The notes under the pieces were generated by a model. That model searched no databases and was not told the DNA's origin. It was given only the letters and a program-made list of their open reading frames with translations. Both the position numbers and the translations under genes were made by a program. A DNA stretch of 64,000 bases from Streptomyces sp. NBC_00569 (GTDB lineage: Bacteria; Actinomycetota; Actinomycetes; Streptomycetales; Streptomycetaceae): NCBI RefSeq assembly GCF_036345255.1, contig NZ_CP107783.1, positions 1,364,001 through 1,428,000 of the forward strand, given 5' to 3'. Positions 5,736 through 20,385 of this stretch are shown one piece after another. Position 1 is the stretch's first letter. Each line of letters begins with the position of its first letter.

Positions 5736-6138
5736 GAATACAAGTCTGACCAATGTCGGGCTTAGCGCACTTCGAGCGGAGCAGACGAGCGCACGCGTCG
5801 GATCGGGTTGCTCGCGCCTCAAGGCCCGTCACCTGCTGATCCGGGCATTTGGTGTGCGCTCGGCAAGCTATTGGCCACGTCAGCGTCCCCGGGGGCTGTT
5901 GACGTAATACCTGCTGGGCTTCTCACGCTTCCAGAGGATCCGGTCGTGGTTCCCATCTGAGACTGCAGGACGCTCACGCGGCTTGCCGGGCCGCGGCCAC
6001 CCCACGGTCGCGGCGGCAATCAACCTCTGGTCTGCGCGGAAGCAGCAGCGCGGAATCGCTGGCGGCGCCGCTGCGGCGGTTTGACGAAGGGCGACAGCGC
6101 GCACCGGACGCGGCTTGGTCTGCTGCAGTTGGGTACGG
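5736..6138. other. Upstream region of the gvp operon, no recognised gene
   Basis: This stretch must carry the gvp promoter, but no clear -10/-35 pair was identified. A minus-strand open frame at 5880-6104 ends in SDGNHDRILWKREKPSRYYVNSP, which looks protein-like but was not assigned to a family. It may be a fragment of a lost gene. Confidence 0.4.
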
Positions 6139-6580
6139 CTACACGGATGCGTGGTGGACCTCGACCACCGTGATGTCGACGGCGGTCACCACCATGCCCA
6201 GGATATGGCCGCAGGTGTCTGCTACCGAGCGGCGCACCAGTCCGACCGTCTCAGGCAAAGGGCGGTTCATTTCGGCGGTCAGGGGCATGCTCACGCGCAC
6301 ACCCGTGAAGAGGTCAGATCAGGCAAGGCGACAACTGACGGTAGTGACGCCGGGCACCTCGTCCGCTGCGCGCCGCAGCACGGCGGACGCGGCGCGCTCG
6401 GCTATCCGCAGGGCGCGCGTGGGGCCGCCGAAGGGCAGTGTCGATCCCGGCCACACCTGATCATGGATGATTTTGGTCATGACGCGGGCGATGAGGCACT
6501 GCGTGCTGGGAGGTTCCCGTTCCCGCAGAGTCTTCGTCGCTTTGTCCAGTGCCGGGTCTTCGACGGCGCGCTCCGTCGTG
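6139..6580 (-). pseudogene. Asp23/Gls24-like protein, disrupted paralogue of the gene at 18806-19489
   Basis: Blocks match the intact fusion at 18806-19489. ALDKATKTLRE, STQCLIARVM, TRALRIAERAASAVLRRAADEVPGV and RPLPETVGLVRRSV align with ALDTATQALRE, STQNLIARVM, TRTLQIAEHTAATVLRRAADAIPGV and RPLPETADLVRRSV. The frame carries one in-frame TGA at 6319-6321 and then runs on to a natural TAG at 6139. The N-terminal zinc-motif half is not recognisable. It is a pseudogene unless the TGA is a sequencing error. Confidence 0.78.
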
Positions 6581-15496: not shown

Positions 15497-16105
15497 TTAC
15501 TCGGCGCGGCGCGCCTTGTGCCTTCCCACGTCCAGCCGTGCCCGGGTGGGCAGGTGGGTCAACCCGGTGCAGTCGCGTACACGTGCCACGGGGCCGTGGC
15601 ACAGCGCCTGTAGGACGGGGGCGGGCGTGCCGTGATCCGTCAGCGTGAGGGCCACGTGGAGGCAGGGGCGCGCCGCCCGTCCGGTGACATGGGCGCTCGC
15701 CTGCTCGACGCCGGGCAGGGCACGCGCTTCGGCGGTGACCACATTACTGAGGGCGCGGCCCCGCAGTTCGACGCTTTCTGGTGGAGGCGTGCCGCCCAGG
15801 TGCACTGAAGCGGGGCGACGGCGGCGCAGCTGCGCGAGCAGCCAGAGCAGGGCGAAAACGGCGGCCAGAACCAGGCCGGCGATGACGGCGGGCCACCACC
15901 ACCAGCCCTGGTCGCTCCACCCGATGCGGTCGGCGTTGCTGAGTAGGACGTCGTGAGGCGTGGTCAGGGGCCAGCCGGCGGGCGCGGCCAGGTGAAGCTG
16001 GCGGTAGAGGTCGAGGCCTGCGGTGAGGATCAGCAGACCGCCGCCCAGCAGCACCAGGCCACTGAGGGCCATGAGGAGACGGTTGAGTGTGGATCGGCCG
16101 TTCAT
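15497..16105 (-). CDS. amaP: Alkaline shock response membrane anchor protein AmaP
   Basis: 202 residues. Two membrane segments (about 8-28, LLMALSGLVLLGGGLLILTA, and about 68-92) flank a short extracytoplasmic loop. A cytoplasmic Asp23-like part follows (ELRGRALSNVVTAEARALPG, CLHVALTLTDHG). This is the AmaP arrangement, a membrane anchor for Asp23 proteins. It is last in a minus-strand operon after DUF6286 and two Asp23 genes, with a gap of 20 bases from the previous stop. It probably tethers the Asp23 proteins to the cell membrane. Confidence 0.82.
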   Translation of the reverse strand: MNGRSTLNRLLMALSGLVLLGGGLLILTAGLDLYRQLHLAAPAGWPLTTPHDVLLSNADRIGWSDQGWWWWPAVIAGLVLAAVFALLWLLAQLRRRRPASVHLGGTPPPESVELRGRALSNVVTAEARALPGVEQASAHVTGRAARPCLHVALTLTDHGTPAPVLQALCHGPVARVRDCTGLTHLPTRARLDVGRHKARRAE

Positions 16106-16125
16106 GGCGCGCTCCCGGGGTGAGG

Positions 16126-16806
16126 TCAACGAGTGCGGTGTCGTAGGCGGATCGCCAGCCGCGGGGTGTGCGCCACAGCGAGCTGACGGCACTGGTCCTG
16201 CAAGGCCTGGATGAGGTCGTCGCGGACGGTGGCGGGGTCGCGGAAGCGGACGTCCGCGCGGGTCGTGACGCGGCGGCGTCCGACCCGGACCCGGGCACCG
16301 CTGATGCCGGGGACGCGCATCGCGGCGTCGCGCAACACCAGGGCGGCACCCCTGCGGTCCAGCCAGGCCCCCATGTCGGAACAGCCATCGGGTGCCCGAA
16401 GCGGCAGCAGCCGGCGCAGGCCGGGGGTGAGGCCGAGGATGAGCAGCCACAGGCCGAGGATGACGGCGACGGCGCCCGCGACCAGCAGCCAAGGGTCGTC
16501 GACCGGGCGCGTGGCCAGCTCGTGGGCGAGGCGGATGCGCCATGCCCCGGCCCGATGTCCGGCGCGCACTGCGATCACGTCGTACAGCAGCACCCCGGCG
16601 GCACAGAGCGTCACCAGGGCGACCAGGGCGGCCGGGATGCGGCGTGCGGACCACAGTCGGGGCGACCTCGCCCCCCAGCCGTCATACGGCAGCGGGTGGC
16701 TCGTCGCGGGAGCGCGGATGTCAGGCTGGCCTGTCTCAGCAGCCTCCTTGGCCGAGGGCGTCTGCTCATCGTGAGCAGGCGGGGCGGGCCCGGATGGGAG
16801 GGTCAT
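16126..16806 (-). CDS. DUF6286-type membrane protein of the Asp23 locus
   Basis: 226 residues with a hydrophilic Pro/Ala-rich start. Two membrane segments follow (about 60-80, IPAALVALVTLCAAGVLLYD, and about 105-125, LLVAGAVAVILGLWLLILGL). The cytoplasmic tail is Asp23-like (GISGARVRVGRRRVTTRADV). The topology is similar to AmaP. In Streptomyces such a gene regularly lies between asp23 and amaP. Function is unknown; it may be a second anchor. Confidence 0.75.
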   Translation of the reverse strand: MTLPSGPAPPAHDEQTPSAKEAAETGQPDIRAPATSHPLPYDGWGARSPRLWSARRIPAALVALVTLCAAGVLLYDVIAVRAGHRAGAWRIRLAHELATRPVDDPWLLVAGAVAVILGLWLLILGLTPGLRRLLPLRAPDGCSDMGAWLDRRGAALVLRDAAMRVPGISGARVRVGRRRVTTRADVRFRDPATVRDDLIQALQDQCRQLAVAHTPRLAIRLRHRTR

Positions 16807-16888
16807 GGTGGCCGTCCTTCGTCGTTGGTGTGAGGATCGGCAGGGCTGATGGTCGGCCTGTAGGGCAGCGCTGCGGCGGTGAGCGAGA

Positions 16889-17296
16889 TCAGCGGACGCG
16901 AGCCGACCGGCCCGCGACGACCAGACGCCGCACGGTCAGCATCACCTCGCTGATGTCCAGGCCGGTCAGTTGGGCCACCCGTTCGGCGACCTCACGCTGC
17001 AGTTGCCCGCAGGTGGCGGCGATGTCAGTGGGGTAGGGAAGGTCCACCGTCAGCGCCAGCTGTGCCGTCCCGTCGTACGTGGTCGTGCGAACGCCGGATG
17101 CAGTCAGCGCCGCATGCGCATGTGACGGGTGGGTGAGCCGGTGCAGGGCTGTGCTCGCCACCCGTGCGGCGATGCGGGCCACGACCCGGTCGGGTATCAC
17201 TGTCGCGCCGCGCTCGGCAGGCGGCAGAGGATTCTCGGCGTCGTACCCGCCGTGGGGGCTCTCAGCTGATCCGTCGCTGCGGGTGGTGGTGCTCAC
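16889..17296 (-). CDS. Asp23/Gls24 family envelope stress protein
   Basis: 135 residues from the GTG at 17296, which overlaps the preceding stop by four bases (GTGA). The core has RGATVIPDRVVARIAARVAS, LALTVDLPYPTDIAATCGQL and VAQLTGLDISEVMLTVRRLV, the pattern of Asp23/Gls24 domains. It is cytoplasmic and probably membrane-tethered by AmaP. An upstream in-frame start at 17491 would read through the neighbouring gene and is rejected. Confidence 0.8.
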   Translation of the reverse strand: MSTTTRSDGSAESPHGGYDAENPLPPAERGATVIPDRVVARIAARVASTALHRLTHPSHAHAALTASGVRTTTYDGTAQLALTVDLPYPTDIAATCGQLQREVAERVAQLTGLDISEVMLTVRRLVVAGRSARVR

Positions 17297-17484
17297 TGTT
17301 GCCGCCGGGTGGACAGGTCTCGCTGCCGCCGGGTGAACACGTCGGCGTCGCCCTGCAGGACGAGACCGACGACCAAGCCCACCGCGCCCAGGACCGCTAC
17401 CAGGAGGAAGGCCCAGAAACCGCCGAAGTAGCCGGCGAATCCCAGTGCCATTCCGGCTGCCAGACCCACTGTTGCTGTATTCAT
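17293..17484 (-). CDS. Small membrane protein of the Asp23 locus
   Basis: 63 residues. Nearly the whole N-terminal two thirds is hydrophobic, with a hinge at FGGF: VGLAAGMALGFAGYF, then WAFLLVAVLGAVGLVVGLVL. An Arg/Gln-rich tail follows. The reading GTG-ATG leaves the start at 17487 or 17484. It is coupled to the following Asp23 gene. DUF2273-like proteins occupy this place in other asp23 operons, but the family was not confirmed here. Confidence 0.68.
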   Translation of the reverse strand: MNTATVGLAAGMALGFAGYFGGFWAFLLVAVLGAVGLVVGLVLQGDADVFTRRQRDLSTRRQQ

Positions 17485-17546
17485 CACTCACGCACCTGTC
17501 TCACGCCGGTGTTCGATCGAAGAGGAACTCCGCCCGCTGCCGGAAG

Positions 17547-18035
17547 TCATTGGACGCGGCCTTCGGCCGGTTCGGTGTCGTCTTCGTCGTCGGGCAGGTT
17601 TACGTCGTCGATGACGAGGTTCACCTCGATGACCTCCAGGCCGGTCATGCGTTCCACGGCGGAGATGACGTTGACGCGGACCTCTGCTGCCACATCGACG
17701 ATGGGGTAGCCGTACTCGACGACGACATCGATGTCGAGTGCGGCCTGGCGTTCGCCCACCTCGACTTTCACGCCGCGGCCGACGCCACCGGCGTCTGCGC
17801 CGGGGACGCGTTCGCGCACGGCTCCGAACGCACGGGTCATGCCCGCGCCGAGGTTGTGGACACCGGGTACCTCGCGGGCAGCCGTCCCCGCGATCTTGGT
17901 CACGACGCCGTCGGCGATGGTGGTCTTGCCCCGCGTTTCGGGGGATGTGCCCGCGCCAGTCGGCCCCTTCAGCATGGTCGCCGTCCCGGGAGAGCCGTCC
18001 TGTCCGGTGGAGGGACGGTCGGTGGTGTCCGTCAT
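17547..18035 (-). CDS. Asp23/Gls24 family envelope stress protein (operon lead gene)
   Basis: 162 residues. After a hydrophilic 40-residue start comes the Asp23 domain: GKTTIADGVVTKIAGTAARE, VKVEVGERQAALDIDVVVEY, GYPIVDVAAEVRVNVISAVE and GLEVIEVNLVIDDVNLPDDE. This is the best match to classical Asp23 in the window and the first gene of the minus-strand operon. It is transcribed away from the ECF sigma factor gene. A role in cell envelope homeostasis is inferred from the family. Confidence 0.85.
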   Translation of the reverse strand: MTDTTDRPSTGQDGSPGTATMLKGPTGAGTSPETRGKTTIADGVVTKIAGTAAREVPGVHNLGAGMTRAFGAVRERVPGADAGGVGRGVKVEVGERQAALDIDVVVEYGYPIVDVAAEVRVNVISAVERMTGLEVIEVNLVIDDVNLPDDEDDTEPAEGRVQ

Positions 18036-18182
18036 GGCAGTCGCCTCGATCAGTCGCTGCGGGCACCGGCACGATGCCCGTCAAGGATGGGACACACCCG
18101 ACAGGCAAATCGTCACACATTTCCACGAACCGGCATCACATCCCTCAGGCCGGGCACAACACCGCAGGGAGGAGGTGCGGTC
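18036..18182. promoter_or_regulatory. Divergent control region of Asp23 operon and sigma factor operon
   Basis: These 147 bases separate the divergent Asp23 and sigma genes. They contain an interrupted inverted repeat (GGGCA, nine bases, TGCCC at about 18085-18104) and a GAACCGG element at about 18126 that resembles an ECF-type -35. GGAGG precedes the sigma start. The arrangement suggests that the encoded sigma factor drives one or both operons, but no promoter was defined with certainty. Confidence 0.4.
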
Positions 18183-18815
18183 ATGACGCACAGCGCCGGC
18201 CCTTCCCCGCGCCGAGCGGCCTGCCCCGGCCCACCCCCGGACCCCCCTGACCCGGGCACGGCCGACGGACTGCTCACCGCGCCGGACGACCTGCTGGCGA
18301 CACGCGCCGGTGAAGGCGACGAGGAAGCCTTCGCCATCCTGGTGCGGCGCCACAGCCGTCCCCTGCTCGCCCTGGCCTCCCACACGCTGGGCAACGTTCA
18401 AGACGCCGAGGACGCCGTGCAGGACGCGTTCATCAGCGCCTGGAGGAGCCTTCCCGAATTCCGCCACGCCTCGGCGTTCAGCACTTGGATGTACCGCATC
18501 ACCGTCAACCGCTGCCTGAACTCCCTGCGCCGCCGGCCGGCACCGGTACCGTTGGACTCGGTGGCCGAACCCGCCGCCCCCGGTACGCGTGGCTCGCCCG
18601 CGCGGGCAGCCGAACAGGACGCCCTCACCGAAGCCCTGGTCAACGCGCTCGGCGCGCTGGAACCGCAGCAGCGGGTCTGCTGGATCCTGCGGGAACTGCA
18701 CGGCCTGCCCTACGAACAGATCGCCCACGTGACCGGCACCTCCGAGCAGACGGTCCGCGGGAGACTGTACCGAGCACGCCGATCCCTGAAGGAGGCACTG
18801 GGCCCATGGCGCTAG
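18183..18815 (+). CDS. ECF-type RNA polymerase sigma factor
   Basis: 210 residues. Region 2 spans about 45-110 (AFAILVRRHSRPLLALASHT, then DAEDAVQDAFISAWRSLPEF and TWMYRITVNRCLNSLRR). Region 4 spans about 145-200 (LGALEPQQRVCWILRELHGL, YEQIAHVTGTSEQTVRGRLY). The ATG at 18183 follows GGGAGGAGG. The stop overlaps the next gene, which carries an anti-sigma-type zinc motif, so sigma and probable antagonist are translationally coupled. Its likely regulon is the neighbouring envelope genes. Confidence 0.88.
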   Translation: MTHSAGPSPRRAACPGPPPDPPDPGTADGLLTAPDDLLATRAGEGDEEAFAILVRRHSRPLLALASHTLGNVQDAEDAVQDAFISAWRSLPEFRHASAFSTWMYRITVNRCLNSLRRRPAPVPLDSVAEPAAPGTRGSPARAAEQDALTEALVNALGALEPQQRVCWILRELHGLPYEQIAHVTGTSEQTVRGRLYRARRSLKEALGPWR

Positions 18816-19489
18816 ACGACCATCCCACCGGGCCTCCGGAGCTCGGACGCCAACCCCGCTCGCCAGACGGCTCACCTCTCGACGAGGTCCGCCGTCATAC
18901 CGGAGACGAAGTGCTCACCTGCGGGCGCACCCTTAGTCACGCCTGGGAACAGGCCCGGGACGCCGGTCCGCCCGCCGACCCTCACCTCGCCGACTGCCCC
19001 TACTGTCGCGACGCCGTCGAAGGACTGGCCGCGCTGGACACAGCTACGCAGGCCCTGCGGGAACAGAAGAAGCCCAGCACCCAGAACCTCATCGCCCGCG
19101 TCATGGACAGCGTCCGGGACGAGGTACGACTGGGGTCGATGCTGCCTCTGAACGACCCCACGCGCACCTTGCAGATCGCCGAACACACCGCGGCCACCGT
19201 GCTACGGCGCGCAGCAGACGCGATACCCGGCGTCATCGCCGCCAGCTGCTGCCTCACCCGAGCCGACCAGGGCACCGGCGTAAGTGTGAGCATCACCCTG
19301 GCTGTCGGCCTGGAACGCCCCCTGCCCGAGACGGCCGACCTGGTGCGCCGCTCGGTGCTAGATGCCGCCGACCACGCCCTGGGCCTGGGAGTGACAGCAG
19401 TGGACGTCACGGTCATCGACGTGCACCATGCACCCGTATCGCCGAACCGCGCAGACACCACCCGTAGTGGACCGGGCGGCACCCCATGA
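18806..19489 (+). CDS. Zinc-motif anti-sigma-like domain fused to Asp23-like domain
   Basis: 227 residues. The N-terminal part has Cys39 and an HxxxCxxC motif (His60, Cys64, Cys67; DPHLADCPYCRDA), as in zinc-binding anti-sigma factors. From about 95 it is Asp23/Gls24-like (LIARVMDSVRDEV, LQIAEHTAATVLRRAADAIP, VSVSITLAVGLERPLPETAD). It has no membrane segment. It overlaps the sigma gene by ten bases and the following gene by four. Inference: it may hold the sigma factor and release it when the Asp23 network senses envelope or redox stress. A disrupted paralogue lies at 6139-6580. Confidence 0.78.
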   Translation: MALDDHPTGPPELGRQPRSPDGSPLDEVRRHTGDEVLTCGRTLSHAWEQARDAGPPADPHLADCPYCRDAVEGLAALDTATQALREQKKPSTQNLIARVMDSVRDEVRLGSMLPLNDPTRTLQIAEHTAATVLRRAADAIPGVIAASCCLTRADQGTGVSVSITLAVGLERPLPETADLVRRSVLDAADHALGLGVTAVDVTVIDVHHAPVSPNRADTTRSGPGGTP

Positions 19490-19893
19490 CCGCGTGTCAC
19501 CCTGCCGACATTCGCCAGACCGCCGCTGAGGCCGCCCTCGCGGTCAGTGGGGTCCTCGCCCTGCAGCCCACCCTCGCGAGCCGTCTCGCCCGAGCCGCCT
19601 CACGCGCAACTGCAGGCGCGGCAGCCAGCAGGTTCGCCTCGCCGCTGTCGGGCATCCGTGTCGTCCATGACCCAGACGGCTCCGGCTGGCAAGTGGAGGT
19701 GCGCTGCGTCCTGGCCGAGGGACACCGAGCCATAGACGTCGCCCGCACCGTCCACGACCGGACCCGCGCGTCCCTCACCCCCCTGGTCACGACGCACGGC
19801 ACGGCGGACACCGTCACTGTTACCGTCACGATCATCCGCATCACACGGACAAAACCAAAGGTCGCCCGGCGGCCGCTGAAATCAAAGAAGTGA
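19486..19893 (+). CDS. Small Asp23-locus protein, unknown family
   Basis: 135 residues. It opens with DIRQTAAEAALAVSGVLALQ and ends with a VTVTVTIIRITRT strand and a basic KKVARRPLKSKK-like tail. The predicted strand-helix pattern resembles a short Asp23-like domain. It overlaps the previous stop (ATGA), so it is part of the sigma operon. Such genes accompany Asp23 proteins in Streptomyces. Activity is unknown. Confidence 0.65.
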   Translation: MTACHPADIRQTAAEAALAVSGVLALQPTLASRLARAASRATAGAAASRFASPLSGIRVVHDPDGSGWQVEVRCVLAEGHRAIDVARTVHDRTRASLTPLVTTHGTADTVTVTVTIIRITRTKPKVARRPLKSKK

Positions 19894-20028: not shown

Positions 20029-20385
20029 ATGGCTCAACGAGAAGTAATCACTTATACGGACGACCTCACAGGTGAAGAAGCCGAAGAGATCGGTACCCAC
20101 ACCATCCTCATCGACGGGGCTGGGGTCGAAATTGACCTCTCCACGGAGAACCACGATCGCCTGTTGGAAGTTCTGCACCCCTACTTGAGTGCCGAAGGGG
20201 CCCGTCGAGTACGTGGCAGCGTCACCACTGCCGGCACGAAGGGTAAGCGTCGAGCCGTAGGACCCTCCGCCCACTCGGACACGGCCCAGATCCGGGCTTG
20301 GGCCAAGGAAAACGGCCTTGCGGTGAATGACCGGGGTCGAGTTCCTGCTTCCGTTAAGGAAGCATACGAAAAGGCCAATGATTAA
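20029..20385 (+). CDS. lsr2: Nucleoid-associated protein Lsr2
   Basis: 118 residues. An N-terminal dimerisation strand set (REVITYTDDLTGEEAEEIGT, then GVEIDLSTEN) is followed by a C-terminal AT-hook-like DNA-binding domain (IRAWAKENGLAVNDRGRVPA). The key RGR motif is intact. Lsr2 silences AT-rich, often horizontally acquired DNA. Codon use is less GC-biased here than in neighbours. Streptomyces genomes usually have two Lsr2 paralogues. This one sits in an accessory region, so it is probably the secondary paralogue. Confidence 0.9.
   Translation: MAQREVITYTDDLTGEEAEEIGTHTILIDGAGVEIDLSTENHDRLLEVLHPYLSAEGARRVRGSVTTAGTKGKRRAVGPSAHSDTAQIRAWAKENGLAVNDRGRVPASVKEAYEKAND

Follow-up and report, generated by a model that had tools for sequence, protein, structure and literature searches.

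A putative zinc-type anti-sigma factor fused to an Asp23 domain, and its predicted ECF sigma switch, in Streptomyces

In Firmicutes, an Asp23-family protein and a putative membrane anchor, AmaP, are encoded in one operon. A related set of genes occurs in an actinomycete, Streptomyces sp. NBC_00569, within the stretch of DNA analysed here (the window, 64 kb of contig NZ_CP107783.1, positions 1,364,001 to 1,428,000); unlike the Firmicutes operon, it includes a DUF6286 gene and neighbours the genes of an extracytoplasmic function (ECF) sigma factor and of a presumed anti-sigma factor, a fusion of a zinc module to an Asp23-fold domain. According to PMC8999054, the sigma factor groups ECF286 and ECF292, whose classification is credited there to Casas-Pastor et al. 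(2021), adjoin soluble Asp23-family proteins predicted to be anti-sigma factors, with representatives in Streptomyces rimosus (ECF286) and Mycolicibacterium cosmeticum (ECF292). The available text of that paper gives no experimental data on their mechanism and lists both groups under “unknown mechanism”, apart from the zinc anti-sigma groups ECF270/271 (PMC8999054). The locus shares with them an ECF sigma factor adjoining a soluble, Asp23-family presumed anti-sigma factor, a likeness judged from the published description only, and it is therefore not the undescribed system for which an earlier note on this DNA had considered it the best candidate in the window (PMC8999054).

Zinc anti-sigma (ZAS) proteins carry an HxxxCxxC motif that is preceded, at a distance of 23-26 residues, by a Cys or His; oxidative release has been tied to the N-terminal Cys of those with Cys-His-Cys-Cys (CHCC) ligands (PMC4960319). 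The fold of ZAS proteins, the class I anti-sigma domain (ASDI), has four helices, three of them bundled and the fourth following after a linker (PMC7406223). RsrA, the partner of SigR in Streptomyces, resembles the fusion in being soluble, in its Cys plus HxxxCxxC, in the position of its gene 3' of an ECF sigma gene and in the helix after the zinc bundle; it is, however, a single domain with a Cys-His distance of 23-26, whereas the fusion adds an Asp23 domain and has a distance of 21 (PMC4960319). ChrR, which pairs with RpoE in Rhodobacter, also joins a zinc anti-sigma module to a soluble second domain, but combines HHCC ligands with a cupin-like domain where the fusion combines CHCC with Asp23. 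The contrast with membrane-bound anti-sigma factors drawn in the earlier note holds in that the fusion has no transmembrane (TM)-like segment; this form of control is not new, since the soluble zinc anti-sigma factors RsrA and ChrR are known.

We consider it probable that the locus forms a complete ECF sigma switch of its own, in which the fusion would serve as a soluble CHCC anti-sigma factor and the sigma factor would drive the divergent Asp23 operon. Five computational observations carry this proposal: gene order, conservation of the CHCC ligands, a match to a known anti-sigma factor, co-occurrence of module and sigma factor, and a conserved promoter. The pairing itself is already predicted in print; what is new here is the anatomy of the CHCC module, its co-occurrence with the sigma factor and the candidate target promoter. 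Compared with the available account of ECF286 and ECF292, the zinc module, the sigma-less relatives and the promoter are additions (PMC8999054). A literature search, which left most subscription journals outside its reach, found among the papers listed none linking the zinc module to Asp23 anti-sigma factors.

Zinc module and Asp23 domain of the fusion

In the window, the putative zinc ligands of the fusion are C39 and, downstream, H60-L-A-D-C64-P-Y-C67. Of the 251 homologues found, 120 were listed, and 119 of these keep a Cys followed after 20-23 residues by HxxxCxxC, the exception (P0025) having an aberrant N-terminus. A chance occurrence of the motif was rejected on the basis of this conservation. 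Ligand counts on two further alignments were not used as evidence because they are fixed by row selection: in alignment A5, and among the loci of alignment A1, only sequences with the Cys plus HxxxCxxC pattern (H or D in A5) had been admitted.

When all chain sequences of the PDB were searched with a profile built from 44 modules, the top match was 3hug_B (E 3.2e-4), which we take to be RslA, the anti-SigL factor. It is the closest solved sequence to the zinc module, although the entry is labelled a probable conserved membrane protein and no Asp23 domain was seen in the chain searched. It was followed by C2H2 zinc fingers (0.005-0.017) and then by the anti-sigma factors RsiW (0.071) and DdvA (0.087). 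A profile of 11 zf-HC2 proteins from the same genome finds RsrA, ChrR and again 3hug_B, the last at 7.1e-12. When the zinc module was aligned with this zf-HC2 profile, hhalign returned 89.9%, and the profile-profile score of 36.3 exceeded the highest value from 30 column shuffles, 20.9. The full-length structure model (mean predicted local distance difference test, pLDDT, 79.7; predicted template modelling score, pTM, 0.47) places helices at residues 24-32, 43-51, 59-63, 65-86 and 92-107, and a module-only model (83.2) reproduces the last four of these in order. By sequence, the N-terminal module is similar to zinc anti-sigma domains of the CHCC type. A membrane-bound anti-sigma factor was set aside, as the fusion is without a hydrophobic segment.

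The Asp23-fold domain spans about residues 113-207 and is modelled as alpha-beta-beta-alpha-beta. The window fusion misses the cut-off of Pfam Asp23 (PF03780) with 19.3 against 28 bits (E 0.0016); among nine relatives compared with PF03780, L208 passes (35.9 bits, E 1.1e-8), seven reach 18.1-27.0 and L203 has no match. The structure match of this domain is common to ring-building domains and to the C-terminal domains of metal transporters, and no function can be read from it because such unlike domain types match. Cys148 is invariant in one alignment of the fusion, yet it is absent from several distant relatives, and no role is claimed for it for that reason.

Sigma gene and fusion across genomes

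On the + strand, the ECF sigma gene, the 227-codon fusion gene and a 135-codon third gene succeed one another with overlaps (the fusion ATG overlaps the sigma gene end by 10 bases and the third gene overlaps the fusion stop by 4), and the divergent Asp23 operon starts 147 bases from the sigma gene on the - strand (Table 1). The earlier note had described this arrangement: the sigma gene and the following HxxxCxxC-Asp23 fusion were recovered in full where it had placed them (Pfam, motif, model), and family matches together with hydropathy confirmed the divergently encoded Asp23 proteins and putative membrane anchors.

The order of genes was followed through 76 named loci, taken from a scan of one genome per species. 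A sigma gene lies immediately 5' of the fusion in 74 of them; in the other two, L064 is cut by a contig end and L110 was not placeable by the rule used. Asp23a is divergent from the sigma gene in 72 (in L066 and L103 the two share a strand, and in L072 and L110 no Asp23a was found), and the third gene was detected in 68. The gap between Asp23a and the sigma gene exceeds 700 bases in 16 of the 72 divergent loci (L071, L073, L075 and 13 others), mostly reaching 2.7-3.1 kb as measured between homology starts. The named close protein matches of the fusion belong to Streptomyces and Actinacidiphila, and in a sample of 394 genomes spread over the class, 161 match a profile of the whole fusion, counting those matched through the Asp23 part only. 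Relatives of the fusion also occur on plasmids (six records, among them NZ_CP108443.1 and NZ_CP121273.1), and under one plasmid match in Microbacterium lies an annotated sigma gene.

The distribution of the module was compared with that of the sigma gene in two samples. The first comprised sigma-less Asp23 loci of the same genus, one from the window's own genome and 19 foreign ones hand-chosen, one per genome, from matches that aligned to the C-terminal part only, with about 3 kb viewed on each side. In all 20, the relative of the fusion lacks the zinc module and any CxxC; it lies divergent to the Asp23 operon, its homology to the fusion starts at the helix-4 sequence, and in 17 a further stretch of it matches the profile of the third gene. 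About 500 bp from L171, on the opposite strand, lies an ECF gene of an unrelated kind (53 bits). The second sample comprised 19 loci from other genera, hand-chosen from the stronger matches of a class-wide profile scan. The module was detected in 17, with a sigma gene directly adjacent every time; the three Cys are present in 17/17 and the His in 14/17. Since the module is absent from the sigma-less loci and every detected module has a sigma gene beside it, the zinc module goes with the sigma factor. One locus of another genus (L196:3600-4580, - strand) encodes an ECF sigma factor and an Asp23-like domain in a single reading frame of 326 residues, with no zinc module.

These distributions bear on a different account of the signal, which we regard as somewhat unlikely: the anti-sigma factor would be freed by docking on the membrane-anchored Asp23/AmaP/DUF6286 assembly, the sigma factor would report assembly state or membrane stress, and zinc would be structural only. 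Sensing of Asp23 assembly state, the route suggested in the earlier note, is possible, being compatible with the presence of Asp23 domains in both the presumed anti-sigma factor and its target operon, where some are membrane-anchored. However, retention of CHCC in 119/120 listed close relatives and 14/17 distant ones goes beyond the need of an optional structural site, and the sigma-less loci show such Asp23 operons working without this sigma factor.

Table 1. Predicted genes and promoter elements of the locus (window positions)
Feature	Position	Strand	Basis
Predicted ECF-type promoter of the Asp23 operon: -35 GTGTGACGA, spacer 15, -10 TGTCCCAT	18087-18118	-	Matrix scan
Weak SigB-like promoter candidate of the sigma operon: GCATCA, 13 bases, GGGCAC	18133-18157	+	Position as in type A loci
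ECF sigma factor gene	18183-18815	+	Pfam Sigma70_r2 1.2e-19, Sigma70_r4_2 1.8e-14
Fusion gene, zinc module and Asp23-fold domain, 227 residues	18806-19489	+	Motif, model, N-terminal profile, hydropathy
Fusion-gene stretch for zinc module and next helix, residues 26-108 (approximate)	18881-19129	+	Alignment A5 and model
Third gene, 135 residues, probably a diverged Asp23-family protein	19486-19893	+	Positional relatives
Asp23a, first gene of the divergent operon	17547-18035	-	Pfam Asp23 5.8e-27
Small membrane protein, DUF2273-like, 64 residues	17293-17487	-	Pfam DUF2273 0.0058, below cut-off; hydrophobic 13-48
Asp23b	16889-17302	-	Pfam Asp23 6.6e-7
DUF6286 protein, two TM-like segments	16126-16806	-	Pfam DUF6286 6.3e-30; hydropathy
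AmaP-like protein, two TM-like segments	15497-16105	-	NCBIfam AmaP 51.9 bits, cut-off 55; hydropathy

Hydropathy indicates TM-like segments in the DUF2273-like, DUF6286 and AmaP-like proteins and none in the sigma factor, the fusion, Asp23a, Asp23b or the third gene product. The label “AmaP-like” is used because the score of the 15497-16105 product against the AmaP model NF033218 is below the cut-off. The third gene product has no Pfam match of its own; its positional relatives pass the Asp23 cut-off (3.2e-13 in L192, 9.4e-11 in L193), and the product is probably a diverged Asp23-family protein. The genome measures 10.3 Mb in one contig. Directly after the locus lies an Lsr2-like gene (window 20029-20385, + strand, Pfam Lsr2 6.8e-17). 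A degenerate second, partial copy of the fusion, covering residues 70-222 at 58% identity with two internal stops, is found at window 6103-6567 on the - strand, beside genes that resemble gas vesicle genes.

Promoters between the divergent operons

The aligned intergenic regions contain a conserved element facing Asp23a. The loci were split by sigma identity into type A, the window's clade (64% or more), and type B, to which L098 was assigned. A two-part matrix was derived from 21 distinct type A sites, representing 35 of 38 loci, and reads gcGTGAGga, 14-15 bases, TGTCCAAc; many type A loci are close relatives, as the 21 distinct sites among 35 indicate, and the shuffle controls ignore relatedness. 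In type B the site occurs on the sigma side, where 29 of 39 loci exceed the 99% threshold of the shuffles against an expectation of about 0.4. For the sigma-less loci and the other genera, a score threshold of 12 was adopted from the shuffles of the type A/B scan, and none of the 21 sigma-less loci reaches it in either direction.

The earlier note had made its idea depend on a sigma-type promoter in the divergent region, and at the sequence level a conserved ECF-like promoter is found there, at 18087-18118. Its score of 21.3 makes it the sole outlier in the window (next 10.8), the site being part of the training set; when training omitted the window and L069, it scores 17.8, and the next window site 11.1. 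A loose form of the promoter pattern gave 31 matches genome-wide against 11 for a reversed control. When 30 of these were scored, the Asp23a site ranked top (21.3), the next (17.2) lying within a long reading frame, and 22 of the 30 are covered by likely reading frames. A wide sigma regulon was set aside because the Asp23a site scores highest and most other matches fall in likely reading frames. Identical pattern matches were seen at mirror positions of the contig (G000:C1 66096 and 10258393, 109136 and 10215327, within a base), as expected of long terminal inverted repeats. From sequence, the predicted promoter of the Asp23 operon appears to be read by the adjacent sigma factor.

It is quite unlikely, in our estimate, that the promoter-like sequence is instead the site of another regulator and that the sigma factor has its targets elsewhere. 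Type A loci do contain further elements. A TGTGAN6TCACA palindrome, which we take to resemble a Crp site, is present in 29 of 38 (L045, L047, L048 and L055 among them; shuffle mean 0.02). On the sigma side, 25 of 38 have a SigB-like element, G..T-N14-16-GGGTA[CT] (shuffle mean 0.46/38), named after the SigB-type consensus in PMC8346170. The window itself retains only the GGGCAC variant of this element and half of the palindrome. Because of these elements, other regulators probably act in the intergenic region. The two-part layout of the promoter-like element with its spacer of 14-15, its orientation towards Asp23a in one clade and towards the sigma gene in the sister clade, and its absence from 21/21 sigma-less Asp23 loci nevertheless argue for a sigma factor site.

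The proposed switch and its weighing

Judging from its sequence, the fusion is likely to act on the neighbouring sigma factor as a soluble anti-sigma factor. As a class I zinc-type (CHCC) anti-sigma factor, it would bind zinc between helices 1-3 and, with these and helix 92-107, would bind the sigma factor and hold it in the cytoplasm. Release would follow oxidation of the zinc site or loss of its metal, or else contact of the Asp23 domain with partners of the Asp23 family; the freed sigma factor would then use the GTGA[CG]GA-N15-TGTCC promoter to transcribe the divergent Asp23/DUF6286/AmaP operon. We infer the binding of the sigma factor, the zinc itself, the sign of the effect (anti-sigma versus co-activator), the dependence of this promoter on the sigma factor and the nature of the signal.

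A number of results speak against this proposal. In the PDB search, 3hug_B is separated from the next anti-sigma factors by ordinary C2H2 zinc fingers; a profile of the full-length fusion gives 3hug_B only E 0.088; and with the four ligands masked, the zf-HC2 score drops to 13.3, the background level, so that most of the similarity comes from the zinc ligands and their surroundings. The Cys-to-His distance of 21 residues in the window fusion lies below the 23-26 of known ZAS proteins (PMC4960319). Residues 105-115 and the arrangement of the domains are left undefined by the full model (pTM 0.47), and a Foldseek search with the zinc-module model alone returned no significant match. Among distant relatives, the His is replaced by D in L200 and L207 and by R in L205, while L210 lacks most ligands and L196 the whole module, yet in all of these a sigma gene is adjacent or joined; the converse rule, that the sigma factor always comes with the module, is thus not absolute. 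As for the promoter, only 9 of the 37 type B loci score above the threshold on the Asp23a side, and in other genera a score of 12 is reached in 3 of 19 loci on the sigma side and in 3 of 16 on the Asp23 side. On the sigma side of type A loci it is found in 0/38, so no autoregulation is indicated in the window's clade, and sigma autoregulation was set aside there.

That the fusion assists the sigma factor, as a co-activator or chaperone, rather than inhibiting it is very unlikely: adjacency and the sigma/module correlation indicate a partner while leaving the sign undecided, and L196 unites sigma factor and Asp23 domain in one chain, but the module carries the CHCC ligand set and its top PDB match, 3hug_B, is presumably an anti-sigma factor.

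With regard to the signal that would open the proposed anti-sigma switch, thiol oxidation through the CHCC site is better grounded, on our analysis, than Asp23 assembly state. The two may also be combined: the Asp23 domain would dock the zinc anti-sigma factor into the membrane-anchored Asp23/AmaP/DUF6286 scaffold, and whether the sigma factor is freed to make more scaffold would depend both on the state of that scaffold and on thiol oxidation, an extension that we consider unlikely. If it were true, a cytoplasmic anti-sigma factor would read a polymerising envelope scaffold and the redox state in one molecule.

If the switch works as proposed, Actinomycetes would gain an Asp23 regulon under a sigma factor dedicated to it, with a predicted promoter and a negative regulator that can be removed, and a sigma-less counterpart operon occurs naturally in the same genome. 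Because promoter, negative regulator and counterpart would all be at hand, the signal that calls for Asp23 would be open to simple reporter experiments. The finding, if true, could supply a mechanism for two catalogued, unstudied groups of ECF sigma factors.

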